Below, piece after piece: positions 3 through 23,463 of a DNA stretch of 33,312 bases. The translations under genes and the position numbers were made by a program. The notes under the pieces were generated by a model. That model had not been told where the DNA came from. It saw only the letters and a list, made by a program, of their open reading frames with translations, and did not search any database. Source of the DNA: a virus. The first letter of the stretch is position 1. The number at the start of each line of letters is the position of its first letter. The stretch covers positions 1-33,312 of IMG/VR virus record IMGVR_UViG_3300006919_000211. One strand, written 5' to 3'.

Positions 3-488
3 TCAAAAAACCAAACTACTAAATTAGTTAATAAGTTAAAAGAAGCAGGATATGAAGTAATGATGTTATATGTTTATACTGATTTAGAAACATCTTTAAA
101 ACGTAATCAAGAACGATTTGAAAAATCAGGTGGGAAAGATAGAAGTTTACAACCTGGTGCAGTACTTAGTACTTGGAAAAGTGTAACACAAAATTTTGAA
201 GATTACCAAGATTTATTTGGAGATAATTTTGTATCTGTAACTAATACTGGTGATTCTGAAACAATGAAGGATATAAAAAATATATTAAAAACTTATGTTG
301 ATCCCTTTAAAGTTAAGGATGGTAGGCCTAAAACAGATAAAGAATTAGCTAGATCAGAAGCACAAAAGGCAAAACTAAACCAAGATATACAAGATATTTT
401 ACAATCAAACCAAACACAAAATGTTATAGATGGTTCTGTATCCAAAGAAGAAGCACAATCTAAAATTAAACAATTTTTATCTAGATGA
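3..488 (+). CDS. P-loop kinase-like protein (zeta-toxin-like), 5' end outside window
   Basis: The frame is open from the window edge, so the N-terminus (and any Walker A motif) is missing; the first in-frame ATG at 60 is internal, because the reading before it continues a typical alpha/beta core (LVNKLKEAGYEV, then MMLYVYTDLETSLKRNQER). The pattern of a helix, a beta strand ending in YVYTDLE, then an Arg-rich helix (RNQERFEKSGGKDRSL) resembles the lid and second half of zeta-toxin/nucleotide-kinase-like phage ATPases. The last 60 residues are charged and helical with no recognisable motif. The stop overlaps the next start in an ATGA junction (485-488), suggesting translational coupling. The family assignment rests on pattern memory of the C-terminal half only, and substrate cannot be given. 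Confidence 0.5.
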   Translation, partial: SKNQTTKLVNKLKEAGYEVMMLYVYTDLETSLKRNQERFEKSGGKDRSLQPGAVLSTWKSVTQNFEDYQDLFGDNFVSVTNTGDSETMKDIKNILKTYVDPFKVKDGRPKTDKELARSEAQKAKLNQDIQDILQSNQTQNVIDGSVSKEEAQSKIKQFLSR

Positions 489-3325
489 GTTTAGTTAATG
501 AACTAATTAAAGACTTGCTTCCTGAAGCAGAAAAAAAACAAACTGTAGCATTATACGCAGGTGGTTTTAAACCACCTACTTCTGGTCATTTTGAAGTAGC
601 TAAATTAGCACTTGAACAAAATCCTGAAATAGATGAACTTATTCTTTTTGTAGGAAAAAAAGATAGAGATGGTGTTAGCCAAGTAGATTCTGTAATAATT
701 TGGGAAATTTATAAAAAATATCTTCCATTTAGTATAGACTCTAAAAAAATTAAAATAGTTCCTTCTTCTGTCCCCCCTATTAAAGCGGTATATAATTATG
801 CAAAAGAAAACCCAAACCAAGAAGTATTATGGGTTATAGGAGCTAGAGAAGGTAACGAAGAAGATTTTGAAGATATTAAAAATAGAACAACAGGTATTAC
901 AAAATACCCAAATTTAGAACTTCGTACTATTATAACTAAAGGTGGAGTATCAGGTACAGCTGCAAGAAAAGCGTCTAAATATTCATTTGACCAATTTAAA
1001 GAATTTCTACCTAATCCATTAACGGATGAAGAAAGGAAAGAAATATATGATATAGTATCTAATAAAATACAAGAAGTAGGAGAAGCAAATCTTCCTCCTT
1101 ATGAATGGGAAGAAACAAGAAGAGGAAATTGGTTTATCAATTATGAATTTAAAACCGATAGTGGAGAAAAATATTTAGTTAAAAATGTTAAAGTTATTGA
1201 TGGTGATGAATTTGATTGGGAAATCAACTTTTATGTTGATATAAGTGCAGAAAAGGAGGAAGATGAAGATGATGTGCCTGTATGGAGTTCATCTATAGTA
1301 GTTAATCAGGGAGAAATATATAGAGTTATGTCTACTATAACAGACATTATCAAAAACCTAATTAAAGAATTCCCAGATAGTAGAAAACTTTCTTTTACAC
1401 CCTCACTTTCTAAAATAGGTAATATAGATAACCAAAGGGGAGAATTGTATAAAGCTTATGTAAGAAAACAAATACCACAAGCAAAAATTTCTGAAAATGG
1501 AGAGGAAATAATTATCACTTTACCTAGAAAAATATCTAATTTAGAAGAAAAAAAGGACCCTAAAAAAGGTACTGGAAAAAAACCCAAGGGATCAGGACGT
1601 AGATTATACACAGATGAAGATCCTAAAGACACAGTAGGAGTTAAGTTTAGTTCAAGACAGGATATAGTGGATACTTTAAATAAAGCATCTTTTAAATCAA
1701 AGTCACATGCTAGACAATCTCAAATTATTAATTTAATTCATCAAAGAACTAGAGCTGCCTATAATAGAGCTAAAGACCCTGCTGTAAAAAAACGTTTAAA
1801 GGCTGGTTTAGATTATATTACTAAGCGTAAGGAAGCATCTAAAAAGAAAACACAACGCTTAAAAAAGCAAAAATTAAATGAGTTTGTAAAAAGCGATTTT
1901 AATCGTGTTTTATTTTACCAAAATTATTTTACTAATGTTTCCCCTTCTACTTTTAATATAGACGTAGTAGAAGAAGATATAGTAATAAGTGGAATAAATA
2001 ATCCCTATCCTCCTGAGTTTAATAACTCAACAAATATTAGACAAACCCCAGTAAATCAAAATTTAGAAGAAGGAGACACTATAGAAAAATATTCGGCTAA
2101 GGGAAAAGCTACTGGCAAATTAAAACAAGGTACAGTTAGAAAAAGATTAAATATTCCAAAAGATAAAAAAATTCCTTTATCTTTAATTAATAAAGAATTA
2201 GCCCGTTTAAGAAAAATGGATAAGGATCCAGATAAAAAAGGTGCTCAATTAGGAGATAAAAATCAAAAATATTATAAAGCATTACAATTAGCTAAAACAT
2301 TAAAAACAACTACTAATGTAAATGAAGCTATAGATCCAAGTAAGTTTAATTTTACCCCTCATATTACTTCTCTTACGAAACATATGATAGATAATGGGTT
2401 AAAATTAGAACCTCTACCCCAAATTAATATGGTTCATGATGATTATAAAAATGGGGAGGATTTATTTGGTAAAACTGCTTATTATTCTCCTTCTGAAAAT
2501 GAAATAGTTCTTTTTACCTATGGCAGACATCCTAAAGATATTTTACGTTCATATGCTCATGAATTAATCCATGTCCACCAAAATATGGAAAATAGGTTAC
2601 AAAATATTAGTACAACCGATGTAAATGAGGATGATTATTTAGAACAATTAGAAAGAGAAGCATATGAAACTGGTAATATATTGTTTAGAAGTTGGACAGA
2701 TTCTCTTACTGGTAATAAATTAAATGAAAATAAAAAAGGAGATCCATTTGGTTTAAAAGCATATGCTCAAGAATTAGCTAGATTAAGAGAAGATGAAGAA
2801 AACGAATACATGATATATCTTGATATGGATGGTGTTATAGCTGATTTCAAAACCAGATTTAAAAATATATCAGGAAGAGATAAAGATGAGTATATAGAAA
2901 AAGAGGGTAGAGATGCTTTTTGGAACTTTATAAACACAGGTAAAAATAAAATTAGATTTTGGGTGGGTATACCCCCTATGGAAGGTGCTAAAAAATTAGT
3001 TGATTATGTTTCTAAATATGATTATGAAATATTAACTTCTCCTTCTCGTGAATCAAAAGATTCTTTTAAATTTAATAAGAATGCAATGATAGGTAAAAGT
3101 GGATGGGTTAAAAAATATATAGGAGATATATTTCCTTCTAAACCTAAAATTAATTTTAGATTTTCATCGAATAAGCATACAATTAAAACACCTTTAACAA
3201 AAAAAGATATACTTATAGACGATACACCATTTATAATTAATAATTGGAATAATGCAGGAGGAACTGGGATTTTATATAAATCATCAGATCAAGTTATTTC
3301 TGATTTAAAAAAATTAGGTTTGTAA
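485..3325 (+). CDS. Multidomain protein: nucleotidyltransferase + basic domain + zincin + HAD phosphatase
   Basis: A 946-residue fusion. Residues 20-195 form a nucleotidyltransferase Rossmann domain (NMNAT/PPAT-like): GGFKPPTSGH holds the (H/T)xGH motif at 32-35 and VSGTAARK (155-162) matches ISxTxxR. Residues about 212-345 are an alpha/beta segment of unknown role. Residues 355-460 are Lys/Arg-rich with GTGKKPKGSGRRLY, resembling the DUF5872-type basic domain. Residues 530-605 are a basic helical linker. Residues 615-740 carry AHELIHVH (HExxH at 692-696) and a downstream LEREAYE that could supply the third zinc ligand, so a zincin-like peptidase fold. Residues 774-946 are a HAD domain: DMDGV (780-784), TSPS (851-854), IDDTP (911-915), most like the 5'-nucleotidase (deoxy, NT5C) branch. 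The N-terminus (MSLVNELIKDLLPE) looks like a capsid-targeting tag, and (I/L/V)-x-E triplets lie between domains. Substrates of all four modules are undetermined. ATGA and TAATG overlaps couple it to both neighbours. Confidence 0.8.
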   Translation: MSLVNELIKDLLPEAEKKQTVALYAGGFKPPTSGHFEVAKLALEQNPEIDELILFVGKKDRDGVSQVDSVIIWEIYKKYLPFSIDSKKIKIVPSSVPPIKAVYNYAKENPNQEVLWVIGAREGNEEDFEDIKNRTTGITKYPNLELRTIITKGGVSGTAARKASKYSFDQFKEFLPNPLTDEERKEIYDIVSNKIQEVGEANLPPYEWEETRRGNWFINYEFKTDSGEKYLVKNVKVIDGDEFDWEINFYVDISAEKEEDEDDVPVWSSSIVVNQGEIYRVMSTITDIIKNLIKEFPDSRKLSFTPSLSKIGNIDNQRGELYKAYVRKQIPQAKISENGEEIIITLPRKISNLEEKKDPKKGTGKKPKGSGRRLYTDEDPKDTVGVKFSSRQDIVDTLNKASFKSKSHARQSQIINLIHQRTRAAYNRAKDPAVKKRLKAGLDYITKRKEASKKKTQRLKKQKLNEFVKSDFNRVLFYQNYFTNVSPSTFNIDVVEEDIVISGINNPYPPEFNNSTNIRQTPVNQNLEEGDTIEKYSAKGKATGKLKQGTVRKRLNIPKDKKIPLSLINKELARLRKMDKDPDKKGAQLGDKNQKYYKALQLAKTLKTTTNVNEAIDPSKFNFTPHITSLTKHMIDNGLKLEPLPQINMVHDDYKNGEDLFGKTAYYSPSENEIVLFTYGRHPKDILRSYAHELIHVHQNMENRLQNISTTDVNEDDYLEQLEREAYETGNILFRSWTDSLTGNKLNENKKGDPFGLKAYAQELARLREDEENEYMIYLDMDGVIADFKTRFKNISGRDKDEYIEKEGRDAFWNFINTGKNKIRFWVGIPPMEGAKKLVDYVSKYDYEILTSPSRESKDSFKFNKNAMIGKSGWVKKYIGDIFPSKPKINFRFSSNKHTIKTPLTKKDILIDDTPFIINNWNNAGGTGILYKSSDQVISDLKKLGL

Positions 3326-4530: not shown

Positions 4531-4806
4531 ATGGACAATTTTGATGTGTACGAGTGGAATAAAAAACGCTATCTTAATGAGGGTAAAGAAGAACTTGAAT
4601 CTATTAAAAAGGATTTAGAGGATAAAAATCCACATTTAAACTTTAGAATTAATAGGGATGAAATTAGAGTTAGTAGTCCAACTAATAACCAACAAGATTT
4701 AGCCGATTTTGGGGGAAAAATACATAATAAAGGATTTGGGCAATACAAAGGATTTCATGATGATAAAGAAGGTAGGGGAGAAATTGTCCGAATTATAAGA
4801 AAATAA
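4531..4806 (+). CDS. Small hypothetical protein with N-terminal tag-like helix
   Basis: The protein has 91 residues. The first 17 residues (MDNFDVYEWNKKRYLNE) end in L-N-E and resemble the short N-terminal tags on several neighbouring genes. The rest is charged (KKDLEDKNPHLNFRINRDEIRV) and could be one small alpha/beta fold. The start abuts the previous stop. No family is recognised. The gene ends just before a late-promoter element, so it closes its transcription unit unless there is read-through. Confidence 0.7.
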   Translation: MDNFDVYEWNKKRYLNEGKEELESIKKDLEDKNPHLNFRINRDEIRVSSPTNNQQDLADFGGKIHNKGFGQYKGFHDDKEGRGEIVRIIRK

Positions 4807-4825
4807 CATTACTAGAAAATTTTAA

Positions 4826-4837
4826 TATTTATAAATA
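4826..4837 (+). promoter_or_regulatory. Late-class promoter element TATTTATAAATA
   Basis: TATTTATAA followed by ATA forms a perfect 12-bp palindrome that contains the T4 late promoter core TATAAATA. It lies in the 44-bp gap before the acidic protein gene, 16 bp from the end of the 9-mer to the ATG. The same 9-mer recurs in the same position before most head and tail genes of this window. Confidence 0.7.
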
Positions 4838-4850
4838 AAAATATATTATC

Positions 4851-5186
4851 ATGAAAATGACAGTACTTGAATTAAAAGCTAAAATTAAAGAAGATATTAT
4901 TTCTTTATTATCTGAACAAGATGAAGAAAATGAGGATGTTGAAAATGAAGATGAAATAGAAGATGTAGAAATAGAAGACACAGAAGATGATATAGAAGAC
5001 CCAGAAATGGAATTTGATACAGATGAGGGAACCATTGCTTTAAGTGATGAAGACCAGAAACAAATTAATACTCTAAAGTCTTACCAACAGGATGCCTTAA
5101 ATGGTGGTAATCAATCATTGGCTGATCAATATGGAAGAACTATTTCTTTAATATTGAATCAAGTAAAAGGAAGAAAGAGTGAGTAA
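4851..5186 (+). CDS. Acidic protein with N-terminal capsid-targeting-like tag
   Basis: The protein has 111 residues. It begins with an amphipathic helix [22 protein letters not shown] that ends in L-S-E, then a long Glu/Asp-rich low-complexity stretch (residues 23-62), then a short helical end. This layout is what one expects of a head-core or internal head protein: a targeting helix, a protease site and an acidic body. It has its own late promoter element. Its 3' end is separated from the next ATG by one base (TAAGATG). No family is recognised; the head role is inferred from tag, composition and promoter class. Confidence 0.7.
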
Positions 5187-5187
5187 G

Positions 5188-7398
5188 ATGCTTAATGAGC
5201 GTAAACTTACAGAAAACGAATTAGAGCAAAGAAAAATTAGCATAAAAGGCATGCTAAAAAATACACGTTCTTTCATTAGAAAATATGGAAGGAATGCAGA
5301 AAAAGTTATGTATGGAACAGCCACCAACCAGGCAAAGAAAAAAGTTGAAAATATGAACTTAGACAACCTTAGATCAATGATTAAAGATGCTCTTACTGTT
5401 AAGGAAGCATCTCCTTTTGTTTTAGCCGCTGATGCAGCAAGAGATGCTGGTAAAAAAGAATTTGAATTTCCTAAAGGTAGTGGAAAAATGCATCCTGTAA
5501 CTATTAAACAAGATCTTAAAACTGAAGTAATAGATCCTAATGATATTGAATTTGAGGAAGAAGATTTTGAATATGATGATGATACAAATGAAGTAGATAA
5601 GATAGCGGCTGACATCCAAAATGCACTTAACAAACATGAGGGAGATGAATCTAAAACTTTCCAAATCCAGAGAGCTAGAAAAGCATTGAATAAAGGGGAT
5701 ATTGAAAAAGCTAAAAAAATTGTTAGTAGATACCTACAGGAAGAAATTGGAGAAGATTTAGATGTAGGACATCAAGATAATGAACCACATGCTCTTAAAA
5801 AAGACTTATATAGAATAACTAAATATTCATCTGAATTATTTAAAATGATGGATAAATATGATCAAGGTGGAGAAGTAGATTTTCCACATTGGTGGCAATC
5901 TAAAATTATTGAAGCCAAAAACCTACTATCCTCAGCTAAGCATTATTTAGATGGTGAAGAAAAAGTATCTCAAATTGATAATATGTTAGATGAAACAATT
6001 GATTATGATGAAGCTTTAACTTTAAGAGATATAAAAGCTGAAATCGAAGCTGAAATTGCTCAATTATACAAAGATATGGAGCAAGAAGCTGAACCAGAAG
6101 GTGGGCCAATTGCAAATAGATACGGTGATGAATTAAATAAACTAGAAGATCGTTTAGAGAAAATAAACAAACAACTTCGTGATTATGATATGAATGAATC
6201 TTCTTTAGAGGAGAAAACTCATCTTCCGCAGAGGATGAAAGGGAAACTGAATGGTAGAGATGTTGTAGTTATTATGAATAACCCAAATTCAGGAAATTGG
6301 TCAGTAGTGGATCTAAAAACCAAAAAAGTATTTTCTCTGCGCCAGATAATACAAAATACTAATCCTGATGAATTAGTAAAATTTCATGATTCATTAAAAA
6401 AGGTTTTCTCTATAAGCACCCTTGGAGAAGCAATAAAACCTAATTCGGCCCGTTGGTGGGATATATTAAGCAAATTAAAACCTGGTAGTAGGAATTATTT
6501 TGATTGGCTTGGTCAACTTTCAAAATCTATGGGAACTGACCAACCTTACCCAAGGAAAAAGAAATTAGGACGAAAAGATGAATCATTATCATTACAAGAA
6601 GAAATGGATGGTGGTCAATTATTCGATTATATAGATACAAACTACTATAAAGAATATCCTTTTAACCCAAATAGTTATTCTGAAGATACTACTCTAGTAA
6701 AAAGAACAAAAGATTCTAAATATGACTATGTAATATTTGATTATGATAAAGATAAAGATCAATTCAAAATCAGAGAAGTAGCAGGTCAAGGAAAAATAGA
6801 CCCAAAATTAATGGAAAAATATAAATTATTTCTTGTAAAAAGTGGGACAAGATTTGCAGGGGTAGATAAATATATAACAACTGGTAATTCTGATCCTATA
6901 CCTATTTCAACTAAAGATTTAAAAGATTTAATTGATTATATAATGGCTGGTGTAGAAAGACAAGGAAAAGATGAAGGGGACTATGTTAGATCAATAGGAA
7001 TTAAACCTGGAATAGGTGATCAATATGAAGGACTTATTAAAAAACATGTTAGAGAAGCATTAGGTAAAAAAAAGATAACTGAAGAATTTAAAGTAGGAGA
7101 TAAAGTAACATATCTAGGACATCCTGCTGAAATTACTAAAGTTGATAAAGATATAATGGATAGAGTTTACTATAATGTATCATATGATAAAGGTAATGGT
7201 AAAACTAAAGCAACAAATATCTATAATAAAGATAATGAAATAAAAGCTTTAGAGGAAAAACTTACTAAAAAATCTGATGTAGGTGATTTTGTTGATGACT
7301 TTAAAAAATCTAAAGCAAAACAATTCAAAGGAAAATCAGCAGATAAAAAACGTAAAATGGCAGTTGCCGCTTATTTAGCTAAACAAGATAAAAAATAA
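5188..7398 (+). CDS. Large modular probable virion protein (736 aa)
   Basis: I chose ATG 5188, just after the preceding stop, over an in-frame GTG at 5179. Modules seen in order: tag-like start [11 protein letters not shown]; a basic helix [21 protein letters not shown] (32-52); an [21 protein letters not shown] segment (75-95); an acidic helical region; [19 protein letters not shown] with FPHWWQ (192-237); coiled coil (270-335); a small beta module (345-400); an alpha/beta region; an SH3/KOW-like segment [15 protein letters not shown] (635-649); and a Lys-rich end with QFKGKS. I remember several of these modules as recurring in virion-associated proteins of marine myoviruses, in different combinations. 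(I/L)-x-E triplets fall between modules (LQE 183, LEE 340, LGE 412, LQE 469, ITE 630). No catalytic motif is visible. Function unknown; a processed internal head protein is a reasonable guess. Confidence 0.7.
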
Positions 7399-7850
7399 TG
7401 ACAGCAGCAGAATTAAAAGAAAAAATAAAAAGACTTGCAAAACAAGTTTATAAAGAAAAAGTAAAAAGTGATGATGCTGCCATTGCTTATGATGAATTAA
7501 CAAAATTTCCTGAATTAAAGTCAGTTATTGTTGATTTACTTACAGTTGATTTTGATAAATTCTTAGAATCAATTGATTGGGTTGCTCCTCGTCCTTCCAC
7601 TTTTAGAATAAATCTTTTAAATGGTGAAAACTTTTTATTGGAATATCATGATAGAAGTTGGGTAGCTAAAGTTCAAGGTAAAAAATATTACTTATTAAAT
7701 TTAGATGAAGAAGAAAGAGCAGCAGAATCAATAGCTAGAATTTTATCTTATGGGGGTAAAATAACTACTGGAGCTGATGTTGAAGGGGCTGAAGATATTG
7801 ATATAGGAGGTGAAACTGAATCACCTGAAACTGAAACAGAAGAATTATAA
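7398..7850 (+). CDS. Conserved hypothetical protein (150 aa)
   Basis: The protein begins with a helix [20 protein letters not shown] like the tags of its neighbours, although it ends in V-Y-K-E rather than (I/L)-x-E. The core FLESIDWVAPRPSTFRINL, then NFLLEYHDRSWVAKVQGKKYYLL, reads as a small mixed beta domain; the last 30 residues are acidic. The pattern is familiar from T4-like environmental phages but no function is known to me. It is coupled by TAATG junctions on both sides, so it is expressed together with the large modular gene before it and the Cys-rich gene after it. Confidence 0.7.
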   Translation: MTAAELKEKIKRLAKQVYKEKVKSDDAAIAYDELTKFPELKSVIVDLLTVDFDKFLESIDWVAPRPSTFRINLLNGENFLLEYHDRSWVAKVQGKKYYLLNLDEEERAAESIARILSYGGKITTGADVEGAEDIDIGGETESPETETEEL

Positions 7851-8281
7851 TGGATTTTGATTTAGTAAAATTTATACAAGAAGGGAAACTATTTGAGAAT
7901 ATGATAGATTGTCCCCTTCCTACTCAAAATTTAGAATTAAATACTAAAAATAGAAATTCTGCAATAGAGGCAGATTATATTCAATACGGACCCCTTAATT
8001 TAAATGATGAGGGGTATTGGGAAAGGGCAGCGGATCATTGGAATACAACTGTTGACGTGGCTAAAGAATCTAAATGTAAAAATTGTGTTGCTTTTGATAT
8101 CTCTGAAAGAATGTTAGAATGTATGCCTGGCTCGGTTCAAAAAGACGGGTATTTGGGTTATTGTTGGATGCATAGCTTTAAATGTCATAGTGAAAGAACT
8201 TGTTATACTTGGGCATCAGGTGGTCCTATAGATACTAATAAAGTATCTTATGAATGGCAAGAACGTAAAGGAAATAAGTAA
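7850..8281 (+). CDS. Cys-rich protein, possible metal or Fe-S binding
   Basis: The protein has 143 residues and seven Cys (21, 76, 79, 91, 105, 112, 118). The cluster CKNC (76-79), EC (91), YCWMHSFKCHSERTCYTW (104-121) also contains two His (108, 113). The spacing, with an aromatic-rich C-terminal lobe, suggests a structural zinc or an iron-sulfur site; a distant likeness to small high-potential Fe-S proteins is possible but unproved. It starts with MDFDLVKFIQEGKLFE, again tag-like. TAATG overlaps join it to both neighbours. The role is unknown. Confidence 0.7.
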   Translation: MDFDLVKFIQEGKLFENMIDCPLPTQNLELNTKNRNSAIEADYIQYGPLNLNDEGYWERAADHWNTTVDVAKESKCKNCVAFDISERMLECMPGSVQKDGYLGYCWMHSFKCHSERTCYTWASGGPIDTNKVSYEWQERKGNK

Positions 8282-9420
8282 TGGATATTTTTGATAAAAT
8301 ATTAAAAGAGTATAGCTGGAAATTTCCAAAGGGTTATCCTGATATGAATAATCCTGAAGAAAAAGAGAAGTTATTTTCAATAGTAAATAATTTAATTAAA
8401 GAAGAAGAGGAAAAAGGAAAAATAACTAAAAATGATTTAATAAAACTAATCCAAGATTTGGATTTGGATGATAACCAAGTTAGTAAATTATATAATAGAA
8501 CTAAAAATTTTACTACATATCGGCCTATTAAATCTACTTTAGATAGAAAAAATTATAACCCCCTTATTTTAAAAAAGTTCTCAAAAGAAATCCAAGATCT
8601 TATTGAAGATATTCCTAAAAATAAAGTAGACGATTTTATTAATTATCTAAATAATCCTGATAAAAAAATTAATTTCCCTACAAATTTAAATGGGAATTTA
8701 TTTAAAGCTTTAGCAAAAACTGGGGTACCAAATGAAGTAGTAGATAAAATTATTTATCATACCTCCCAAGATGAAGGTAAACGTGGTGTTGGTATGGGAG
8801 AAGTAGGGATGTCCCTTTTATTTAAAAACGTAGGAGCTTCAACATCAGGTAAAGGTGATTTATCTATTGATGGGGAAGAATTTGAAATTAAAGGTGAAGG
8901 AGCAACATTGGGAGAAAAACCAGCAGGATTTCCATTTAATGTAGGGAGACTTGAACCTTATGGTATTAAAAGATTACCAAAAGGATACATGGTTGGAGAT
9001 GAACAAATTAAACAAACTAATCAATTTGCATTAGCTTTATCTAAAGCTTATTCCCAAACAAAAGATAAAGAGGAATTTAAATCTACAGTAAAAGATAGTT
9101 TAACAGATGATGTAAAATTAGGAGCAGGAGTAGCTGCTTTGTTTAATGATATAAACTTCTCGGACCCCTCTTCAATTCAAACTAATATTGCTTTAATGAA
9201 TTTTATTCGTTATGCCGAAAAAGAAGGTTTTAACCATTTTTTAGCCCATGATTTTGGGACAAAAGGGCCAAATACTGGTGAATATATCTATGTAAAAGGT
9301 TCTCCTGAGGAAATGGCTAAACAATTAAAACAAGCTGGAGTTAAGTTCGAAAAACTAGCCTATAATAATTTAAGACCTAGAATTGGATTTGGGTCAACTA
9401 AAATACAAGAAGATGTGTAG
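8281..9420 (+). CDS. PD-(D/E)XK-type nuclease domain protein
   Basis: The protein has 379 residues. The N-terminal 160 are helical with no motif. The centre carries GMGEVGM (171-177, Glu174), then GDLSIDGEEFEIKGEGATLG: Asp193 followed by E202-I-K204, the D...ExK signature of PD-(D/E)XK nucleases, with a Gly after the Lys as is common. The C-terminal third is alpha/beta (FNHFLAHDFGTKGPNTGEYIY). It is probably a Mg2+-dependent DNase of restriction-endonuclease-like fold. The first residues MDIFDKILKE end in L-K-E like a head-targeting tag, so it may be packaged; otherwise it could act in host DNA breakdown. The start overlaps the previous stop (TAATG) and the 3' end overlaps the next gene by 8 bp. 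Confidence 0.65.
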   Translation: MDIFDKILKEYSWKFPKGYPDMNNPEEKEKLFSIVNNLIKEEEEKGKITKNDLIKLIQDLDLDDNQVSKLYNRTKNFTTYRPIKSTLDRKNYNPLILKKFSKEIQDLIEDIPKNKVDDFINYLNNPDKKINFPTNLNGNLFKALAKTGVPNEVVDKIIYHTSQDEGKRGVGMGEVGMSLLFKNVGASTSGKGDLSIDGEEFEIKGEGATLGEKPAGFPFNVGRLEPYGIKRLPKGYMVGDEQIKQTNQFALALSKAYSQTKDKEEFKSTVKDSLTDDVKLGAGVAALFNDINFSDPSSIQTNIALMNFIRYAEKEGFNHFLAHDFGTKGPNTGEYIYVKGSPEEMAKQLKQAGVKFEKLAYNNLRPRIGFGSTKIQEDV

Positions 9421-10024
9421 CTGTGGATGTAATACTTGTGAAACTAAAATTAGAGGACCTTTACTTACTGAAGGTAAAATAAAATCTTTATTATCTGAAG
9501 GTTTACAATATCATATAGACAAAAAAATTCCTTTATTTGAAACAGTATACCGTATTGGTTCAGATAAACATTTATCTTTAATTAAAGAAGCTAGAAAAAT
9601 GTATTCTAGAAATATAATTGATCTATGTGAAGAAGATGAACATTTAATTAAGACACATTTAGGTGAATTTGGTCTGTATGAAGGTGTATCTGTACCATTA
9701 GATTTACCTATGCTAAATGAAGATGAGATTGAAGAAGCTGAATTTAGAGGTAAAGATGTACCATTAAATAAACCTAAAAGAGGTGGCTCTAAAGCATATT
9801 ATGTTTATGTAAGAGACCCTAAAACCAAAAGAATTAAAAAAGTATCATTTGGTTCAGGTGGATTAAGAGCTAAAATTAAAAATAAAGAAGCTAGAAATGC
9901 TTTTGCAGCTAGACATAACTGTAAAAATAAAAAAGATAGAACCAAAGCAGGATACTGGTCTTGTAATTTACCTAGATATGCCTCGGCATTAGGTTTAGGC
10001 GCTAACATGAATACTTTTTGGTAA
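9413..10024 (+). CDS. Conserved phage protein with Cys-rich N-terminus and basic C-terminal domain
   Basis: I chose ATG 9413 (MCSCGCNTCETK), which overlaps the previous stop by 8 bp, over an in-frame ATG at 9383 deeper in the upstream gene. The four N-terminal Cys may bind metal. Next comes a tag-like LLTEGKIKSLLSEG with L-T-E and L-S-E. The C-terminal 85 residues (KRGGSKAYYVYV, KKVSFGSGG, FAARHNCKNKKD, AGYWSCNLPRYA) form a basic domain with two more Cys, which I recall as widespread in cyanophage and pelagiphage proteins of unknown function. It is likely virion-associated and possibly DNA-contacting because of its charge. This domain is distinct from the basic domain of the next gene. Confidence 0.75.
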   Translation: MCSCGCNTCETKIRGPLLTEGKIKSLLSEGLQYHIDKKIPLFETVYRIGSDKHLSLIKEARKMYSRNIIDLCEEDEHLIKTHLGEFGLYEGVSVPLDLPMLNEDEIEEAEFRGKDVPLNKPKRGGSKAYYVYVRDPKTKRIKKVSFGSGGLRAKIKNKEARNAFAARHNCKNKKDRTKAGYWSCNLPRYASALGLGANMNTFW

Positions 10025-10551
10025 TGGAAAGAGTTAGAGAAGCTATACGTAACGTTTTAAACGAAAAAAAGAAAAAATCAAAACTTTGTAAAAGGGGTAG
10101 AGATTATATCGCTGCCAGAAAAAGAGCAGGTGAAAAATCTTCAGCTTATTTGTCAGGTAGGGCAGTAAAAGTATGTAAGGGTTCTATTAAGGGGGCAGGG
10201 GGAAAAAGAAAAAAATCCTACAAAGAAAACATTGACCCTAAAGCCCAAGAAAAACATACGGGTAAATCAGGTCGTTTTGGTTCCGCTTATGAAAAAGTCC
10301 TTAGGGAATCTTTAAAAGACTGGTTTGAAAAAGAAGATTGGGTTAGAATAAATACTTCAGGTAACATAACTGGTAAATGTGGTACGATGAAAAAAGGTAA
10401 ACCCACAACCAGATGTTTACCTCGCAGAAAAGCTAAGGCACTTTCAAAAGCACAAAGAAAGGCTACTGTAGCTAAAAAAGTAAGAGGGAGTAAAAAGGGG
10501 AAACAATTTGTAAGAAATACTAAAAAAGCCACTTTCAAAAAGAAAAAATGA
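10024..10551 (+). CDS. Very basic DUF5872-like protein with tag
   Basis: ATG 10024 overlaps the previous stop (TAATG); a TTG two codons upstream is less likely. Residues 1-14 (MERVREAIRNVLNE) form an amphipathic helix ending in L-N-E. The remainder is strongly Lys/Arg-rich, with Cys at CKRGRDY and VCKGS, and a C-terminal block EDWVRINTSG, GKCGTMKKGKPTTRCLPRRKA, GSKKGKQFVRNTKKA that matches the DUF5872-type basic phage domain. Such charge suggests DNA packing inside the head or DNA binding at entry. The 3' end overlaps the next start in ATGA. No enzyme motif is seen. Confidence 0.75.
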   Translation: MERVREAIRNVLNEKKKKSKLCKRGRDYIAARKRAGEKSSAYLSGRAVKVCKGSIKGAGGKRKKSYKENIDPKAQEKHTGKSGRFGSAYEKVLRESLKDWFEKEDWVRINTSGNITGKCGTMKKGKPTTRCLPRRKAKALSKAQRKATVAKKVRGSKKGKQFVRNTKKATFKKKK

Positions 10552-13041: not shown

Positions 13042-13431
13042 ATGAAAAAATCTGAATTAACAGCTTTTATTAAAGAAGAAATCTTATCAATACTAGGTGA
13101 GGATGAACAAACCCAACAAGATATTGAAGATACTAAAGAATTAACCCAGGCAATAGATGATTTAGCTGATGCTAAAAAAGAAGCGGGATTAGCGGAGGAA
13201 GAAGAAGCTCCTGCTGGTGATAAGGCAATAGAAAAGAAAGCTTCTAAACAAGATAAAATTATAAGGCAGTATAATGAAAATGAAAAAGAACTGCAGAGTT
13301 ATCTTAAATCATATAAAACAGCTAAAAATGAGGAGGAGAAAAAGAAAGTTTTTGATAAAATGAAAAAGCTTTCCCAAGGTGAAGAATATCTAAAGACTAA
13401 AGACGCATACGAAAAATTAAAAAGAGTATAG
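13042..13431 (+). CDS. Acidic/charged protein with capsid-targeting-like tag
   Basis: The protein has 129 residues. It starts with MKKSELTAFIKEEILSILGE, the clearest example in the window of an amphipathic helix ending in (I/L)-x-E; next comes a Glu/Asp-rich stretch, then a Lys/Glu helical C-terminus likely to form a coiled coil. The composition is like head-core proteins of T4-type phages. It has its own late promoter and is followed after 4 bp by the membrane coiled-coil gene. No family is recognised. An internal head protein is inferred. Confidence 0.7.
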   Translation: MKKSELTAFIKEEILSILGEDEQTQQDIEDTKELTQAIDDLADAKKEAGLAEEEEAPAGDKAIEKKASKQDKIIRQYNENEKELQSYLKSYKTAKNEEEKKKVFDKMKKLSQGEEYLKTKDAYEKLKRV

Positions 13432-14124: not shown

Positions 14125-15690
14125 ATGCCAGATTTAAAAAAAGTAATACGCCAAGAATACCTTAAGTGTGCAAAGGATCCTGTTCATTTTATGCGTAAGT
14201 ATTGTTATATCCAACACCCACAGAGGGGTAGAATCCAATTTAATTTATTCCCTTTCCAAGAAAAAGTACTAACGTTAATGAGAGATAATCCTTATTCGAT
14301 TATCTTAAAATCTAGACAATTGGGTATTTCTACTTTAACTGCTGGTTATTCTCTTTGGATGATGTTATTTGCTAAGGATAAAAATATTCTTTGTATTGCT
14401 ACAAAACAAGAAACAGCTAAGAATATGGTTACAAAGGTAAAATTCATGTATGAAAATTTACCATCATGGCTTAAAGTAGATGCAGACGAAAATAATAAGT
14501 TAACGTTAAGGTTAAAAAACGGATCCCAAATAAAAGCCACTTCAGCAAGTTCAGATGCAGGTAGATCCGAAGCAGTATCTTTACTATTAATTGATGAGGC
14601 AGCCTTTATTGATAACATTGGAGAAATTTGGGCCTCAGCTCAACAAACATTAGCAACTGGAGGTGGGTGTATTGCTTTAAGTACACCTTATGGTACTGGA
14701 AATTGGTTTCACCAAACATGGGTAAGAGCAGAATCTTCAGAAAATGAATTTTTACCTATTAAATTACCTTGGTATGTACACCCAGAACGAGATCAATTAT
14801 GGAGGGATAGACAGGATGAATTATTAGGTGATCCTAGGATGGCAGCCCAAGAATGTGATTGTGATTTTAGTACTTCTGGTGATATAGTATTTTATCCTGA
14901 ATATATTGAATATTATGAAAAATCTTATGTTAAGGACCCATTAGAAAAAAGGGGAGCAGATCAAAATTTATGGGTTTGGGAATCCCCCGATTATACAAGA
15001 AGTTATGTAGTTGTAGCTGATGTAGCAAGAGGTGATGGAAAAGACTATTCTGCTTTTCATGTTATAGATGTAGAAAATAATGTTCAAGTAGCCGAATATA
15101 AAGGACAAATCGGAACAAAAGAATATGGACATTTACTTGTAGGAATAGCCTCAGAATATAACGAAGCACTACTTGTAATTGAAAACGCAAATATTGGATG
15201 GGCAACTATTCAAGCTGCTATTGATAGAAATTACCCAAATTTGTACTATTCCCCCAAATCAGAATCTACCGTAGATTCCTACTTTGACAAATATATGGAC
15301 ACATCTAGAATGACAGCTGGATTTACGATGTCTTCTAGAACTAGACCTATGGTAGTAGGTAAATTTCAAGAATACATTTCAGATAAGGGTGTAACATTTC
15401 AATCTAAAAGATTAATAGAAGAAATGAAAACCTTTATTTGGAAAAATGGTAGACCAGAAGCACAAACGGGATATAATGATGATTTAGTAATGGCATTTGG
15501 TATTGCTATGTACATTAGAGATACAGCTTTAAAATATAGACAAAGAGGTATTGATTTAACTAGACAGGCTTTAAATAATATAACGGTCCAAAGAAACCAA
15601 TATCAAGGAGCTTATTTTTCAAAAGGAACTGATAACCCTTATCATGTAGACACAGAACATGGTAAAGAGGATATTAGTTGGCTTTTGTAG
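14125..15690 (+). CDS. gp17: Terminase large subunit (gp17-like)
   Basis: The protein has 521 residues. The ATPase half has a Walker A-type loop LKSRQLGIST (61-70), in which the usual GK(S/T) Lys is Ile and Lys62 sits at the start of the loop, as known for some terminases; Walker B is LLLIDEAAF (153-161) and the coupling segment is LSTPYGTG (185-192). The nuclease half has VVADVARGDGKD (296-307; Asp299), IEN (352-354; Glu353) and NDDLVMAF (451-458; Asp452/453), the RNase H-like metal ligands. It is the DNA-packaging motor that docks on the portal encoded next. No small terminase subunit is recognised in the window. The start lies 1 bp after the preceding stop; a late promoter follows it. Confidence 0.95.
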   Translation: MPDLKKVIRQEYLKCAKDPVHFMRKYCYIQHPQRGRIQFNLFPFQEKVLTLMRDNPYSIILKSRQLGISTLTAGYSLWMMLFAKDKNILCIATKQETAKNMVTKVKFMYENLPSWLKVDADENNKLTLRLKNGSQIKATSASSDAGRSEAVSLLLIDEAAFIDNIGEIWASAQQTLATGGGCIALSTPYGTGNWFHQTWVRAESSENEFLPIKLPWYVHPERDQLWRDRQDELLGDPRMAAQECDCDFSTSGDIVFYPEYIEYYEKSYVKDPLEKRGADQNLWVWESPDYTRSYVVVADVARGDGKDYSAFHVIDVENNVQVAEYKGQIGTKEYGHLLVGIASEYNEALLVIENANIGWATIQAAIDRNYPNLYYSPKSESTVDSYFDKYMDTSRMTAGFTMSSRTRPMVVGKFQEYISDKGVTFQSKRLIEEMKTFIWKNGRPEAQTGYNDDLVMAFGIAMYIRDTALKYRQRGIDLTRQALNNITVQRNQYQGAYFSKGTDNPYHVDTEHGKEDISWLL

Positions 15691-15720: not shown

Positions 15721-17625
15721 ATGGCAAATAAAAGTATTTTTACTAGATTACAAAGATTATTTTCTACTGATGTTATCATAAGAAATGTAGGAGGTAACCA
15801 AGTCAAAGTAATGGATAGTAGTACTATTCAATCCACAGGTGGAATAGAGACTAATTCCCTAATAGATAGATATAATAGAGTTTTTACTAATAGTTCTACT
15901 TCACTCTATGGAGATCAATTTAATTTTAATTATCAATATTTAAGGCCCCAACTTTATTCTGAGTATGATGTAATGGATCAAGATGCAATTATTGCTTCTG
16001 CCCTTGATATAATTTCTGATGAATCTACTCTTAAAAATGACATGGGAGAAGTATTATCTATTAAATCTTCAAATGAGGACATTCAAAAAATTCTATACAA
16101 TTTATTTTATGATGTTTTAAACATTGAATTTAATTTATGGTCTTGGGTTAGACAAATGTGTAAGTATGGAGATTTCTTTTTAAAATTAGAAATTGCTGAA
16201 AAATTTGGGGTTTATAATGTAATCCCTTACACAGCTTACCATATAAGTAGAGAAGAAGGATTTAACCCTGAAAACCCATCAGATGTAAGATTTAGATTTT
16301 CCCCTGATGGTCTTGTAAATTCTAACTCAGGTATGTATAGAGTACCTGGTCAAAAACCTAATGATAATACCCCTGGAATTTATTTTGATAACTATGAAAT
16401 GGCTCATTTCAGATTAATTGCAGATGTTAATTATTTACCCTATGGTCGTTCATATATAGAGCCTGCTAGAAAATTATTTAAACAATATACGTTAATGGAA
16501 GATGCAATGCTAATCCATCGAATTGCTCGTGCCCCCGAAAAACGTATTTTTTATATGAATGTTGGATCTATTCCTCCAAATGAAGTAGATGCATTTATGC
16601 AAAAAACTATTTCAAATATGAAACGTACCCCTTATGTAGATAAAAATACTGGTGAGTATAATTTGAAATATAATATGCAGAATATGATGGAAGACTTTTT
16701 CATCCCTGTTCGTGGAAATGATACAACAACAAAAATAGAAACTACTCCCGGATTACAATATGATGGCATTCAAGATGTAGAATATTTAAGAGAAAAATTG
16801 TTTGCCGCACTTAAAATCCCAAAAGCTTTTTTAGGATATGAAAAAGATATAGAAGGTAAAGCTACATTAGCAGCTGAAGATATTAGATTTGCTCGTACTA
16901 TTGAAAGATTACAAAGAATAATGGTATCGGAGTTGAATAAAATTGCATTAGTTCATCTATATACCCAAGGATACACAAATGAATCTTTAACTAATTTTGA
17001 AATTTCACTTAATTCTCCTTCAATTATATTCGAACAAGAAAGAATTGAATTAATGAAATCAAAAGCTGAATTAGCCCAATCTTTACGAGACCAAAATTTA
17101 TTACCCTCTGATTGGGTATATGATCATATATTTAACTTCAGTGAAGATCAATATGATGAATATAGAGATTTAATGAGGGAAGATGCAAAACGTAAATTTA
17201 GATTAGCCCAAATTGAAGCAGAAGGAAATGATCCTGTTGAAACCGGTAAATCATATGGAACCCCCCACGACTTAGCCTCTTTATATGGTAAAGGAAGAAT
17301 ATATTCCGACCCAGGAAATGTACCTCCAGGATATAATAAAGACCAAGAATTAGGAAGGCCTAAAGATTCTATTTCAAAAACAGGAACTCAGGACAGTAAT
17401 TTTGGAAAAGATCCATTAGGTACTAGCAGAATGAAAGATACTGATAAGAATGATTCTTTAGATAGTAGAACGGATACAAATAAAAGTGGAATGACTTTAG
17501 AATCTGCTAAAACTACTTATATGAAAAATAAAAATATGTTTAAAAAACTAAATAAAAAACAATTAGTATTTGAAAACGATAAAGATAATACTACGTTGTT
17601 AGATGAATCCCAATTGAAGGAATAA
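15721..17625 (+). CDS. gp20: Portal protein (gp20-like)
   Basis: The protein has 634 residues, against about 520 for T4 gp20; the excess is mostly a hydrophilic C-terminal tail after residue 510. Recognisable features are YDVMDQDAIIASALDIISDES (82-102), the region following the clip/stem with PGLQYDGIQDVEYLREKL, and EDIRFARTIERLQRI (386-400), which matches the T4 portal segment with DELKFARFIxRLR. It forms the dodecameric ring at the capsid vertex where terminase docks and neck proteins attach. It lies between terminase and the head-core/protease genes as in T4. Its start is behind a late promoter. Confidence 0.93.
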   Translation: MANKSIFTRLQRLFSTDVIIRNVGGNQVKVMDSSTIQSTGGIETNSLIDRYNRVFTNSSTSLYGDQFNFNYQYLRPQLYSEYDVMDQDAIIASALDIISDESTLKNDMGEVLSIKSSNEDIQKILYNLFYDVLNIEFNLWSWVRQMCKYGDFFLKLEIAEKFGVYNVIPYTAYHISREEGFNPENPSDVRFRFSPDGLVNSNSGMYRVPGQKPNDNTPGIYFDNYEMAHFRLIADVNYLPYGRSYIEPARKLFKQYTLMEDAMLIHRIARAPEKRIFYMNVGSIPPNEVDAFMQKTISNMKRTPYVDKNTGEYNLKYNMQNMMEDFFIPVRGNDTTTKIETTPGLQYDGIQDVEYLREKLFAALKIPKAFLGYEKDIEGKATLAAEDIRFARTIERLQRIMVSELNKIALVHLYTQGYTNESLTNFEISLNSPSIIFEQERIELMKSKAELAQSLRDQNLLPSDWVYDHIFNFSEDQYDEYRDLMREDAKRKFRLAQIEAEGNDPVETGKSYGTPHDLASLYGKGRIYSDPGNVPPGYNKDQELGRPKDSISKTGTQDSNFGKDPLGTSRMKDTDKNDSLDSRTDTNKSGMTLESAKTTYMKNKNMFKKLNKKQLVFENDKDNTTLLDESQLKE

Positions 17626-19057: not shown

Positions 19058-19998
19058 AAAATTCAGAAAAAATATTTAATTCAATAAAAAAAGAATTAAT
19101 TAATGAAAATTTAGGGTATGTAGATATGCCTTCTATTAATAATTTGGAATCTTCTCCTAAAGAGGGTTTTGAAATTAAATTTGCTAAATTTCTAGCTGAA
19201 GAAGCTAAAGTTGAAGAAAAAAAAGTAACTAAAGAAGTTGAAGAAACTCAAGAGCATAATTTTGATTATACTGATAAAAGTAATTTAGATAACCAAAGAG
19301 GTCAAGAAGTAATGAACGGTGTTTATTTTGAAGCAAAACAAAACCCGGATAAATCAATTGAAGAAATTAAAGAAATTGTAGCCAAAAATTTATCTAAAGA
19401 CTGCCAGTATTATATAAAAAATGCTGCTTTTGGTGTAGAAGGTTTAGGATATACTGAACAAAAAACAGAAGAAGTATCTGGTAAACATGCTTATAGTGGG
19501 TATTCTGATAAAATTAAAGAAATTGTTAAAGAATCTTTAATGGGAGGAATTGTAACTAGTGGTAATCCTAATTCAATTGCTGCACAACAAAACGCTGTAG
19601 TAAAGGAAATGATGGATGATGAAAAAGAAGAAAAAAAAGAAGATAAACCTAAAAAAGCAAAAAAACCTAAAAAAGAATCATTAGATAATGATCTAGCTGA
19701 AATTGATAAACAAGCCCAGGTTGTGGCTTTAGAAGCTAAATTAAATAAAATAGATGAAGTTATTGAGGGCAAAATGACTCGCATTAAAATGGTTTCTGAA
19801 GACGAAAATTTATCTGAATTAATAGATAAAACAAAAGTTAAAACCATGCAAAAAGAAGTAAAAATCTTAGAAAAAAGAAAAGCTAAGATGGAGAAAATGT
19901 ATGAAAAAATGTGTGGTAAAAGATACCAAAAAGAAGAAATTGTTGATGAAGTTGTTGGTAATGTAGAAACTGAAGAAGTTCAATTAGAAAATGAGTAA
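19054..19998 (+). CDS. Charged core-like head protein (314 aa)
   Basis: It starts MKNSEKIFNSIKKELINE, tag-like and ending in I-N-E. A central block GQEVMNGVYFEAKQNPDKS, KNLSKDCQYYIKNAAFGVEGLGYT looks like a conserved small domain seen in T4-like environmental phages. After IKEIVKESLMGG come a Lys/Glu-rich stretch (KEEKKEDKPKKAKKPKKES) and a long coiled coil. Such composition fits a scaffold or internal core protein degraded or trimmed by the protease encoded next. It overlaps the protease gene by 8 bp, which suggests coupled synthesis. Confidence 0.65.
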   Translation: MKNSEKIFNSIKKELINENLGYVDMPSINNLESSPKEGFEIKFAKFLAEEAKVEEKKVTKEVEETQEHNFDYTDKSNLDNQRGQEVMNGVYFEAKQNPDKSIEEIKEIVAKNLSKDCQYYIKNAAFGVEGLGYTEQKTEEVSGKHAYSGYSDKIKEIVKESLMGGIVTSGNPNSIAAQQNAVVKEMMDDEKEEKKEDKPKKAKKPKKESLDNDLAEIDKQAQVVALEAKLNKIDEVIEGKMTRIKMVSEDENLSELIDKTKVKTMQKEVKILEKRKAKMEKMYEKMCGKRYQKEEIVDEVVGNVETEEVQLENE

Positions 19999-20596
19999 AA
20001 CATTATTAATAGAAACTCATACTTTTAAACCTAATCCTGTTTCTTTAACTGAAAATGTTAATAAAGAAAATGGAAACTTAATAGTTGAGGGTATTTTAGC
20101 TACTGCTGAAGTCAAAAATGGCAATGGTAGATATTATTCTAAAGATTTGTGGGACCGTGAGATGGGTAAATATGATGAACTCATTAAACAAAGAAGATCC
20201 ACAGGAGAATTAGACCATCCCGAATCCCAAGTCATTAATTTAAAAAATGTATCTCATCTAATCTCAGGATATTGGTGGGATGGAGATAATATAATGGGTA
20301 AAATAGAAATTTTACCTACCCCTTCAGGTAATATTTTAAAAGCCTTAATTACTGCTGGAGTAACATGTGGGGTTTCATCTCGTGGAATGGGAACTTTAGA
20401 ACAAAATGGTAACGTAATGGAAGTACAAGATGACTTTGAATTATTATGTTGGGATTTTGTTTCTACTCCTTCTAACCCGGGTTCGTTTATGCATACTTTA
20501 CAAGAGGGAAAAAAAGTATTAAATCATGATTATATTAAAGTAAATAGTATTGTGAGAGAAATACTTTGCTCTAAAGGCTCTTGTACTATTTTTTAA
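19991..20596 (+). CDS. gp21: Prohead core protease (gp21-like)
   Basis: The protein has 201 residues, close to T4 gp21. Core motifs: GILATAEVKNGNGRYYS (34-50), TGELDHPE (71-78) with the presumed catalytic His76, and TCGVSSRGMGTL (125-136) with the presumed nucleophile Ser129 or Ser130; DFELLCWDFVSTPSNPGS (148-165) is the conserved C-terminal strand. It is a serine protease of the herpesvirus-assemblin-like fold that cleaves head proteins after (I/L)-x-E in T4. The C-terminus holds LQE and IVRE sequences that might serve self-processing. It lies between core-like genes and scaffold as in T4. Confidence 0.93.
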   Translation: MSKTLLIETHTFKPNPVSLTENVNKENGNLIVEGILATAEVKNGNGRYYSKDLWDREMGKYDELIKQRRSTGELDHPESQVINLKNVSHLISGYWWDGDNIMGKIEILPTPSGNILKALITAGVTCGVSSRGMGTLEQNGNVMEVQDDFELLCWDFVSTPSNPGSFMHTLQEGKKVLNHDYIKVNSIVREILCSKGSCTIF

Positions 20597-20632: not shown

Positions 20633-20652
20633 ATGTCATCCTTATATGACAT
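20633..20652 (+). repeat. Inverted repeat in the gp21-gp22 intergenic region
   Basis: ATGTCAT (20633-20639) and ATGACAT (20646-20652) form a perfect 7-bp stem with a 6-nt loop. There is no T-run, so it is not an intrinsic terminator; it could be a processing or regulatory hairpin. Confidence 0.5.
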
Positions 20653-20661
20653 TTATTATAG
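20651..20661 (+). promoter_or_regulatory. Variant late promoter candidate before scaffold gene
   Basis: ATTTATTATAG followed by TATAA is a one-mismatch-type variant of TATTTATAA and closely resembles the element before the baseplate gene at 30865. It lies about 58 bp before ATG 20720, farther than most others, so the leader would include the second hairpin. Confidence 0.4.
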
Positions 20662-20676
20662 TATAACTTACCCTAT

Positions 20677-21861: not shown

Positions 21862-23463
21862 ATGAGTTTACAAACTTTATTAGAAAGTGCAAACCCATAC
21901 AACTCAGTACAGAGTGATGCAGCCAGATTAGCTGGTAAATGGGAAAGAACAGGTTTATTAGAAGGATTAAAAGGATCTCAGAAAAACAACATGGGAATCA
22001 TCCTTGAAAATCAAGCTAAACAACTTGTAGTTGAAAGCTCTCAAACTGGTGGTGGTACTTCTTCACAAGGTACTTTTACTGCTGGTGTAGGTGAGCAATG
22101 GGCTGGTGTAGCTCTTCCATTGGTACGTAAGGTATTTGGACAGATCGCAGCTCAAGAATTTGTATCAGTTCAACCAATGAACTTACCCTCAGGGCTAGTA
22201 TTCTTCTTAGATTTCCAATACGGAACTACTAAGACTCCATTCACATCAGGTAATTCATTATATGGTGATGCAGGTGATAATCCATTTGGTAACACAAACA
22301 CAGGTGGTTTTTATGGTGCTGGTAGATTTGGATATTCTATTAACAATACTTCATCAGTAGTTACTCCATCTGCTTCAGGTTCTGCTACTTGGTCAGATTT
22401 CAATTATGATTCAGATTATTCTGCTTCAGTTGGTGATTACACTAAATTATCAGTTAATACTTCTTCTCTATCTAATTTAGATTTAGAAGGAATTAGAGCA
22501 TTCCAACTTGACTCAGGTTCGGGCGCTGTTCAAGTATCTGCATTTACAAAGTTAAATGGTGGAGCTATTGAGTTCTTCTGTTTAAATTCTGATGTAGACC
22601 CAACTGGTAATGTAACAGTTACTTATCAACAACAACCAACTGATCAGTACAGAGGTGATTTTGAAGACGGTAACACTGGATTAAACGGTGAAAACAACCC
22701 AATCTCAATCCCAGAAATTAACGTACAGATGAAATCATCTGCAATCGTTGCTAAAACTAGAAAACTAAAAGCTGTATGGACTCCTGAGTTTGCTCAAGAT
22801 CTTAACGCTTACCACGCTCTAGATGCTGAAGCTGAATTAACTTCAATCTTAAGTGAGTATATTTCATTAGAAATTGACTTAGAAATCTTAGATATGTTAA
22901 TTGATTCTGCCGCTGCTGGAACAGAAGTATGGTCAGCTGTTAATAACAGATCTATTGCCCAAGATGCTAACGGTACAGTAACTGATTTAGGGTTCTACAA
23001 TAGCCAAGGACAGTGGTTCCAAACTTTAGGAACTAAAATCCAAAAATTATCTAACATCATCCACCAGAAAACTTTAAGAGGTGGTGCTAACTTTATGGTA
23101 TGTTCTCCAACTGTAGGTACTATCTTGGAATCAATTCCAGGATTTGCTGCTGATTCAGATGGTGATACATCTAAAGCTAACTATGCATTTGGTGTTCAGA
23201 AAGTAGGTAGCTTAAACAGCCGCCAGAAAGTTTATAAGAACCCATACATGACTGAAAACAAAATCTTATTAGGATTTAGAGGAGGTCAGTTCTTAGAAGC
23301 TGGTGCTGTATTTGCTCCATACATTCCATTAATCATGACTCCACTAGTATACGACCCAGATACCTTCACTCCACGTAAAGGTCTATTGACTCGTTATGCT
23401 AAGAAAATGGTACGTCCTGAATTCTATGGTATTATCGAAGTAAATGGTTTAAACTCTCTATAA
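21862..23463 (+). CDS. gp23: Major capsid protein (gp23-like)
   Basis: The protein has 533 residues (T4 gp23 521). MSLQTLLESANPYNS starts an N-terminal pro-region; candidate protease sites are IILE (46-49) and VVE (56-58), just before SSQTGGGTS, near the T4 cleavage position of 65. FVSVQPMNLPSGLVFFLDFQYG (100-121) is the gp23 signature, in the wording I associate with far-T4 sequences. KAVWTPEFAQDLNAYHALDAEAEL and the C-terminal KGLLTRYAKKMVRPEFYG are also conserved. It forms capsid hexamers after HK97-like folding and trimming. Codon use is visibly richer in AAC, TTC and ATC than surrounding genes, as for a highly expressed protein. An intrinsic terminator follows. Confidence 0.96.
   Translation: MSLQTLLESANPYNSVQSDAARLAGKWERTGLLEGLKGSQKNNMGIILENQAKQLVVESSQTGGGTSSQGTFTAGVGEQWAGVALPLVRKVFGQIAAQEFVSVQPMNLPSGLVFFLDFQYGTTKTPFTSGNSLYGDAGDNPFGNTNTGGFYGAGRFGYSINNTSSVVTPSASGSATWSDFNYDSDYSASVGDYTKLSVNTSSLSNLDLEGIRAFQLDSGSGAVQVSAFTKLNGGAIEFFCLNSDVDPTGNVTVTYQQQPTDQYRGDFEDGNTGLNGENNPISIPEINVQMKSSAIVAKTRKLKAVWTPEFAQDLNAYHALDAEAELTSILSEYISLEIDLEILDMLIDSAAAGTEVWSAVNNRSIAQDANGTVTDLGFYNSQGQWFQTLGTKIQKLSNIIHQKTLRGGANFMVCSPTVGTILESIPGFAADSDGDTSKANYAFGVQKVGSLNSRQKVYKNPYMTENKILLGFRGGQFLEAGAVFAPYIPLIMTPLVYDPDTFTPRKGLLTRYAKKMVRPEFYGIIEVNGLNSL

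Follow-up and report, generated by a model that had tools for sequence, protein, structure and literature searches.

The 33,312-nucleotide virus record IMGVR_UViG_3300006919_000211 of IMG/VR (33.3 kb, analysed at its full length and referred to here as the window), whose head genes are T4-like, carries close to its left end a gene for a 946-residue protein (Table 1). This protein is probably a head cargo polyprotein of the T4 type, which would enter the prohead, be cleaved in trans by a gp21-like protease at [LIV]xE motifs (Leu, Ile or Val, any residue, Glu) between its modules, and be delivered with the DNA. The host is presumably a marine member of the Bacteroidota, judging from the cultured relative, Flavobacterium phage vB_FspM_immuto_2-6A (immuto).

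Modules of the chain and their order in relatives

A first-pass annotation made from the sequence alone described this plus-strand, ATG-initiated open reading frame as a fusion of four enzymes with [LIV]xE triplets close to the domain borders, and suggested that it may travel in the head as a single cargo from which gp21 releases the individual enzymes. We find the 946-residue frame as described, and in it all of the motifs invoked: GGFKPPTSGH and VSGTAARK of a nucleotidyltransferase (NTase), HELIH as the HExxH of a zincin, and DMDGV, TSPS and IDDTP of a HAD enzyme. The eight triplets listed there also lie where they were placed (LPE14, IQE197, LEE355, LNE466, LEE529, VNE614, LNE748 and LRE769). 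The enzymes stand, but the number of units does not, as relatives reveal at least seven separable modules and one short recurrent peptide; what had been taken for one basic domain is basic in character but consists of two different basic modules, and the module at residues 198–337, DUF6934-like in relatives, had been overlooked. Further triplets not listed before are present between modules (VNE6, VGE200 and ISE337), and six more are inside modules, at 51, 74, 295, 496, 497 and 715.

The NTase has both the motifs and the predicted fold of the NadD/NMNAT/PPAT group, with PPTSGH corresponding to T/HxGH and VSGTAAR to (I/V)S(S/G)TxxR, and a Foldseek search with its model returned NadD and PPAT (phosphopantetheine adenylyltransferase) structures at E ~1e-5. 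The HAD module shows the DxDGV, S/T and DD motifs and the NT5C similarity of 5'(3')-deoxyribonucleotidases; it matches phrog_2643 (E 1.7e-22) and PF06941 (E 4e-5), the latter with 24.0 bits, slightly below the Pfam cut-off of 24.8 bits. Support for the zincin comes from a metallo-protease match (phrog_87) in the relative L024 (L and a number label relatives), and from an IrrE-like entry among the viral fold neighbours of the predicted whole-chain model. A sequence search of the whole chain against solved structures gave HAD and adenylyltransferase matches only, and these were weak. Two recurrent peptides of 20–25 residues, KDPFGLNAYARELARGLEE and DGKAAPYGSGYEKVNE, are found between modules, the first mostly flanked by LxE on both sides; such peptides could be internal targeting signals or spacers.

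Scanning IMG/VR with the gene gave 42 relatives, and scans with the two basic modules alone gave about 150 more loci; overall about 120 related chains were compared. The same modules recur among them in differing orders, with some lost and others gained, such that the 91 complete multi-module chains display 73 module orders. The NTase comes first in 82 of these, and in five others it follows a polymerase-beta-like domain, which is seen in L027, L081 and immuto. Gained modules include a second zincin, a zinc ribbon, DUF5661, DUF6934, a plastocyanin-like domain and Fe/Mn superoxide dismutase. Superoxide dismutase is normally a stand-alone enzyme; here it is embedded complete, with its metal-ligand signature MDVWEHAYY, in two chains (L017 and L136), with LxE in the flanking residues. 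The L017 chain additionally embeds a plastocyanin-like cupredoxin with LxE in the residues around it. Because each module ends in a putative cut site, swapping modules would be harmless to their neighbours, which would explain the shuffling.

Modules also occur in simpler settings. GDT is directly behind the leader in L151 (L151:27-1049; MKKLDRIIRKILQE/GDTYEK, where the slash follows the Glu of the motif), a basic module is present outside a polyprotein in L087:3890-4684, behind a leader and LEE, and KGTG is a stand-alone 96-residue gene, gp40, in Pelagibacter phage HTVC033P (L047:3941-4231). Apart from this gene, phages other than immuto gave HAD matches only when cultured relatives were sought. 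One tblastn scan of GTDB contigs (bacterial genomes) with six short peptide patterns found no relatives, which is weak evidence. Cyanophage S-RIM2, a fold match, was set aside: its head-gene region has a stand-alone plastocyanin gene, and a cytidyltransferase chain is absent there.

The motif at the joins

To locate the joins without any module definition, we collected 375 breakpoints from BLAST alignments of non-redundant chains, each an end of homology that is internal to both proteins. [LIV]xE is present within 6 residues of 154 of these, as compared with 76±8 at shifted positions (z 10), and the distances from breakpoint to motif peak at zero. When the test was performed with [LIV]E, [LIV]xxE, [LIV]xD, [LIV]xK, Ex[LIV] or [AGS]xE, z was below 2 in each case. 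Near breakpoints the residue after Glu is preferentially Gly, Asn, Lys or Ala, whereas elsewhere it is mostly Ile or Leu.

A second test used module cores, identified with 32 seed sequences for 27 module families, and two nulls, a random stretch of the same length in the same chain and a shuffle of residues within the linker. The initial set of 30 chains has 161 joins, of which 145 contain [LIV]xE (45±5 at random places and 59±5 after linker shuffling), and the motif is present at 68 of the 76 join types. As the choice of seeds was visual and made after the motif had been noticed, the test was repeated on 68 further chains, none of them a near-duplicate of a chain already used. Here the motif is present at 224 of 239 joins (nulls of 80±7 and 100±7) and at 35 of the 36 join types absent from the first set. 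Chains share ancestry and the counts are not independent events, so that the distinct join types are the more cautious figure. The earlier proposal of a single cargo cut by gp21 thus gains strong comparative support from the joins of about 120 chains and from the independent repeat.

Alignment columns that were not conditioned on the motif show the same pattern. Directly before GDT[YI]EK, the P1 position is Glu in all 52 sequences and P3 is Val, Leu or Ile in 49 of 52, while P2 varies (Lys, Asp, Glu, Gly, Asn or Ser); Glu precedes GRYD in 18 of 18 instances, and before A[TS]YS both Glu and Leu/Val/Ile are present in 31 of 31. Among all joins Asn is enriched at P2 (33%), mostly encoded as AAT GAA such as to create ATGA across the frames, and the protease motif offers no explanation for this.

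It is improbable that the chain acts as an uncut, multifunctional full-length protein in which LxE reflects merely linkers that are exposed and biased in composition, or the traces of past fusions. Such a protein would fit with the failure to find cleavage data and with the number of triplets in the window chain, 17 as against 15.2 expected from composition, which rules out an excess of LxE by count. The non-random part of the signal is location, the number being unremarkable: 11 of the 17 sit between module cores, and the density over all distinct multi-module chains is 3.5 per 100 residues outside cores and 0.73 inside. Shuffling within linkers abolishes the enrichment in both sets of chains, the spacing controls fail, and P1 and P3 are fixed while P2 is variable; within-linker shuffles together with the spacing and residue controls rule out a plain composition bias of the linkers. 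The presence of superoxide dismutase in the middle of two chains likewise argues against an uncut protein.

We consider it even less probable, and indeed very doubtful, that joins fall at LxE because a short DNA sequence promotes recombination there, the protein motif being a by-product. In its favour, many joins have Asn at P2, encoded as AAT in 92% of cases there versus 80% elsewhere, but other codon usage is near background (GAA for Glu 0.91 versus 0.88, TTA for Leu at P3 0.79 versus 0.68), P3 is freely Leu, Val or Ile, and the same residues are found in the leaders of separate head genes.

In an AlphaFold2 model of the chain (mean predicted local distance difference test score [pLDDT] 73, predicted template modelling score [pTM] 0.34) the NTase, zincin and HAD units are well predicted. 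With regard to the concern, raised in the first-pass annotation, that the triplets might be buried inside folded domains, seven join sites (197, 200, 355, 529, 614, 748 and 769) are predicted to lie in low-confidence linker segments with pLDDT <50. Of the sites inside modules, 51 and 74 are within well-predicted structure, and 496 and 497 are in a low-confidence stretch. The low pTM means that the model says little about the relative placement of domains, as expected for beads on a string.

Leaders, head protease and gene order

Among NTase-first chains, 74 of 107 have [LIV]xE before the NTase core (for example MNQLTKFLVDGILNE and MNHLTRSLLEGLLEE), and where the HAD is a separate gene its product mostly starts with a leader of its own that ends in LxE (L013, L023, L026, L032, L034, L038 and L039). 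The window encodes a gp21-family prohead protease (S77), which is also present in the records of L002, L004, L011 and L028, all of which reach that far, and weakly in the truncated L038. Its own N terminus reads MSKTLLIE/T, with LLIE/T at residue 8, and T4 gp21 itself has LIE-9 (PMC9026906). The N-terminal region of the major capsid protein contains LLE/S, LLE/G, ILE/N and VVE/S, the last of which aligns with the T4 gp24 site LRE/S and adjoins the T4 gp23 site LTE/A. Throughout the window, [LIV]xE within the first 25 residues is found in the products of the gene block at 4531-10551 and of several head genes, in the protease and capsid proteins, and in two open reading frames near the window end, and is absent from the first 25 residues of the terminase, portal, sheath and tube proteins; the T4 portal is likewise unprocessed (PMC5694885). 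The chain gene lies upstream of the portal gene on the same strand, at a distance of 12.4 kb in the window, about 12–16 kb in L002, L004, L011, L025, L028 and L038, and 10.8 kb in immuto.

By sequence, the join motif is that published for T4 gp21, L/I-X-E (PMC9026906), with Val also common at P3 here; in T4, processing is blocked when P1 is Asp (PMC9026906). The motif bears on a further alternative, that the chain is a self-processing polyvalent protein of the Iyer and Aravind kind, with an embedded zincin cutting its joints either prior to packaging or following injection. No domain is more common in polyvalent proteins than the zincin, which is also their proposed processor (PMC5512222), and all but four of the 91 complete multi-module chains contain HExxH or a zincin module. 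We nonetheless regard this as unlikely, since the joints bear the motif of the T4-type serine protease, which is present too in the capsid protein and near the protease N terminus of the window, motif-bearing joints are found in the zincin-free chains L088, L203, L114 and L157, and the separate HAD genes have the same motif in their leaders although they lack a zincin.

Several observations weigh against a cargo polyprotein cut by the gp21-like protease. The searched literature yielded no cleavage data, virion data or virion proteome for these phages, and the chains carry zincins as potential alternative processors. In 33 of 107 NTase-first chains there is no LxE peptide before the NTase core (for example MKIALLPGGFKPP), and N-terminal targeting would therefore not be universal. 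A few joins retain only the Glu (QKNE, QKSE, QKTNE) or have no motif, join site 466 is within a predicted long helix, and the six in-module sites of the window chain would need protection by folding. Lastly, module cores and seeds were picked by eye after the motif was known, a choice of which the breakpoint test is free.

Table 1. Coordinates of the chain, its modules and other features (window positions unless a relative is named; a slash follows the Glu of a motif).
Feature	Position	Strand	Remarks
Putative cargo polyprotein gene	485..3325	+	ATG start, 946 residues; relatives known
N-terminal peptide MSLVNE/LIKDLLPE/, residues 1-14	485..526	+	capsid-targeting-like
Adenylyltransferase-fold NTase, residues 15-197, end KIQE/	527..1075	+	Foldseek NadD/PPAT; CTP_transf_like in relatives
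YEF module (DUF6934-like in relatives), residues 198-337, end KISE/	1076..1495	+	
18-residue linker, residues 338-355, end NLEE/	1496..1549	+	from sequence; pLDDT <50 from residue 346
Basic module KGTG, residues 356-466, end KLNE/	1550..1882	+	573 related loci in IMG/VR
FVKS module, residues 467-529, end NLEE/	1883..2071	+	mobile as unit in L009, L010, L132, L133
Basic module GDT, residues 530-614, end NVNE/	2072..2326	+	99 loci
Zincin (HExxH) module Zn1, residues 615-748, end KLNE/	2327..2728	+	HELIHVHQ
Short recurrent peptide DPFG, residues 749-769, end RLRE/	2729..2791	+	same 20-25 residue peptide between many other modules
HAD 5'-nucleotidase (NT5C-like) module, residues 770-946 and stop	2792..3325	+	PF06941, phrog_2643
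Neighbouring gene block	4531..10551	+	short leaders ending in [LIV]xE
Terminase large subunit	14125-15690		
Portal	15721-17625		
gp21-family prohead protease (S77)	19991..20596	+	PF03420 E 1.6e-26; phrog_207; 17 kb downstream of chain gene
Major capsid protein (gp23-like)	21862..23463	+	phrog_138
Superoxide dismutase in chain	L017:3071-6832 residues 486-690; L136:2183-5227 residues 377-565		

Comparison with known systems and a model for delivery

T4 internal proteins IPI-III and Alt share with the chain a late head region, L/I-X-E sites and proposed packaging and injection (PMC5694885, PMC9026906); their N-terminal capsid-targeting peptide, of about 10–20 residues ending in the cut motif, has a putative counterpart by sequence in the window chain. 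Alt is cut at both ends, at ITE-6 and LTE-619 (PMC5694885). The T4 internal proteins have one cargo domain each, whereas the present chain combines several unrelated enzymes, almost every one set off from the next by a cut motif, and their order is shuffled among relatives. Several prohead protease sites, with cuts after x-Glu, are also a feature of the T4 core proteins gp22, gp67 and gp68 and of the ejection proteins of phiKZ and SPN3US, but there cleavage strips away or breaks up propeptides or core proteins, while here the pieces would be whole enzymes.

The resemblance to polyvalent proteins (Iyer et al. 2017, PMC5512222) lies in the many unrelated domains per chain, the portal-terminase phage context and the frequent zincins; their authors compared them with RNA-virus polyproteins (PMC5512222). 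These chains also have the 2–15 biochemically disparate domains and the variable architecture by which polyvalent proteins are recognised, as the module orders of the complete chains illustrate. They differ in that the processing of polyvalent proteins is attributed mainly to embedded zincins or a C-terminal assemblin-like domain, whereas the joints here bear the motif of a separate S77 protease, and in that most of the modules are different ones. ArdC-N, RadC and ART were not among the domains that Pfam named in the window chain or in 23 relatives, although no search was aimed at them.

In the cultured relative, immuto, gp088 comprises a polymerase-beta-like domain, an NTase and two zincins, and gp087 is a HAD with its own LxE leader; the genes are upstream of terminase and portal as in the window. 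Immuto differs in that the HAD is separate and gp088 has no KGTG or GDT module, with 36% identity in the matched parts. The first-pass annotation knew of no described phage protein with the combination of domains seen here, which holds for the combination in the data searched, although the general idea of multi-enzyme cargo has already been published (PMC5512222). Beyond that paper the searched literature, which left out most subscription journals, holds no phage polyprotein cut by a prohead protease. It appears that T4 internal proteins supply the route and polyvalent proteins the many-enzyme idea, and that shuffled joints bearing the signal of a separate maturation protease are new.

The probable course of events is that the short helix-like N-terminal peptide takes the full chain into the prohead core and that, on completion of the shell, the gp21-like serine protease would cut after Leu/Ile/Val-x-Glu at the joints. 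The products would be an adenylyltransferase-type NTase, a DUF6934-like domain, two small basic proteins, a zincin, a 5'-nucleotidase and short peptides. Inside the head the basic modules may bind DNA. The freed enzymes would remain there until they pass into the host together with the phage DNA, ready at the very start of infection to act on nucleotide or NAD (nicotinamide adenine dinucleotide) pools and on host proteins ahead of phage gene expression. The deoxyribonucleotidase would adjust nucleotide pools, and an NAD-type adenylyltransferase could replenish NAD lost to host defence, in the manner of the NAD reconstitution pathways of phages (PMC12774641).

For a large group of marine T4-like phages we lean towards a broader proposal, in which the head maturation protease serves as a polyprotein processor and its cut sites as universal connectors, such that any protein could join the injected cargo once inserted in frame between two LxE motifs. 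The cargo would include superoxide dismutase, a plastocyanin-like protein, the nucleotidase, NAD-type adenylyltransferases, zincins and basic DNA-binding-like proteins, and the arrangement would constitute an evolvable protein delivery cassette for which we found no precedent in DNA phages. If the chain is indeed a head cargo polyprotein, then RNA-virus polyprotein logic, with one chain, many enzymes and cutting in trans by the maturation protease, also underlies the delivery of cargo in a widespread group of DNA phages. The [LIV]xE rule, with P1 and P3 conserved and P2 free, would then predict head cargo and its cut points from genomes alone, provide a list of enzymes potentially injected by marine phages at the onset of infection, superoxide dismutase and NAD-type adenylyltransferases among them, and supply a design rule for loading several proteins together into T4-type heads.

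The products of the neighbouring genes at 4531-10551 and 13042-13431 have short leaders that end in [LIV]xE, for example MKKSELTAFIKEEILSILGE and MERVREAIRNVLNE, and are probably further head cargo; in those at 5188-7398, 9413-10024 and 10024-10551, LxE is present between segments as well. A scaffold-like protein (20633-21835) ends in VERFKKLAGII, and its start is probably a later ATG (MLNNRDLLKEAIADAK), which would give this protein, too, a leader ending in LxE.

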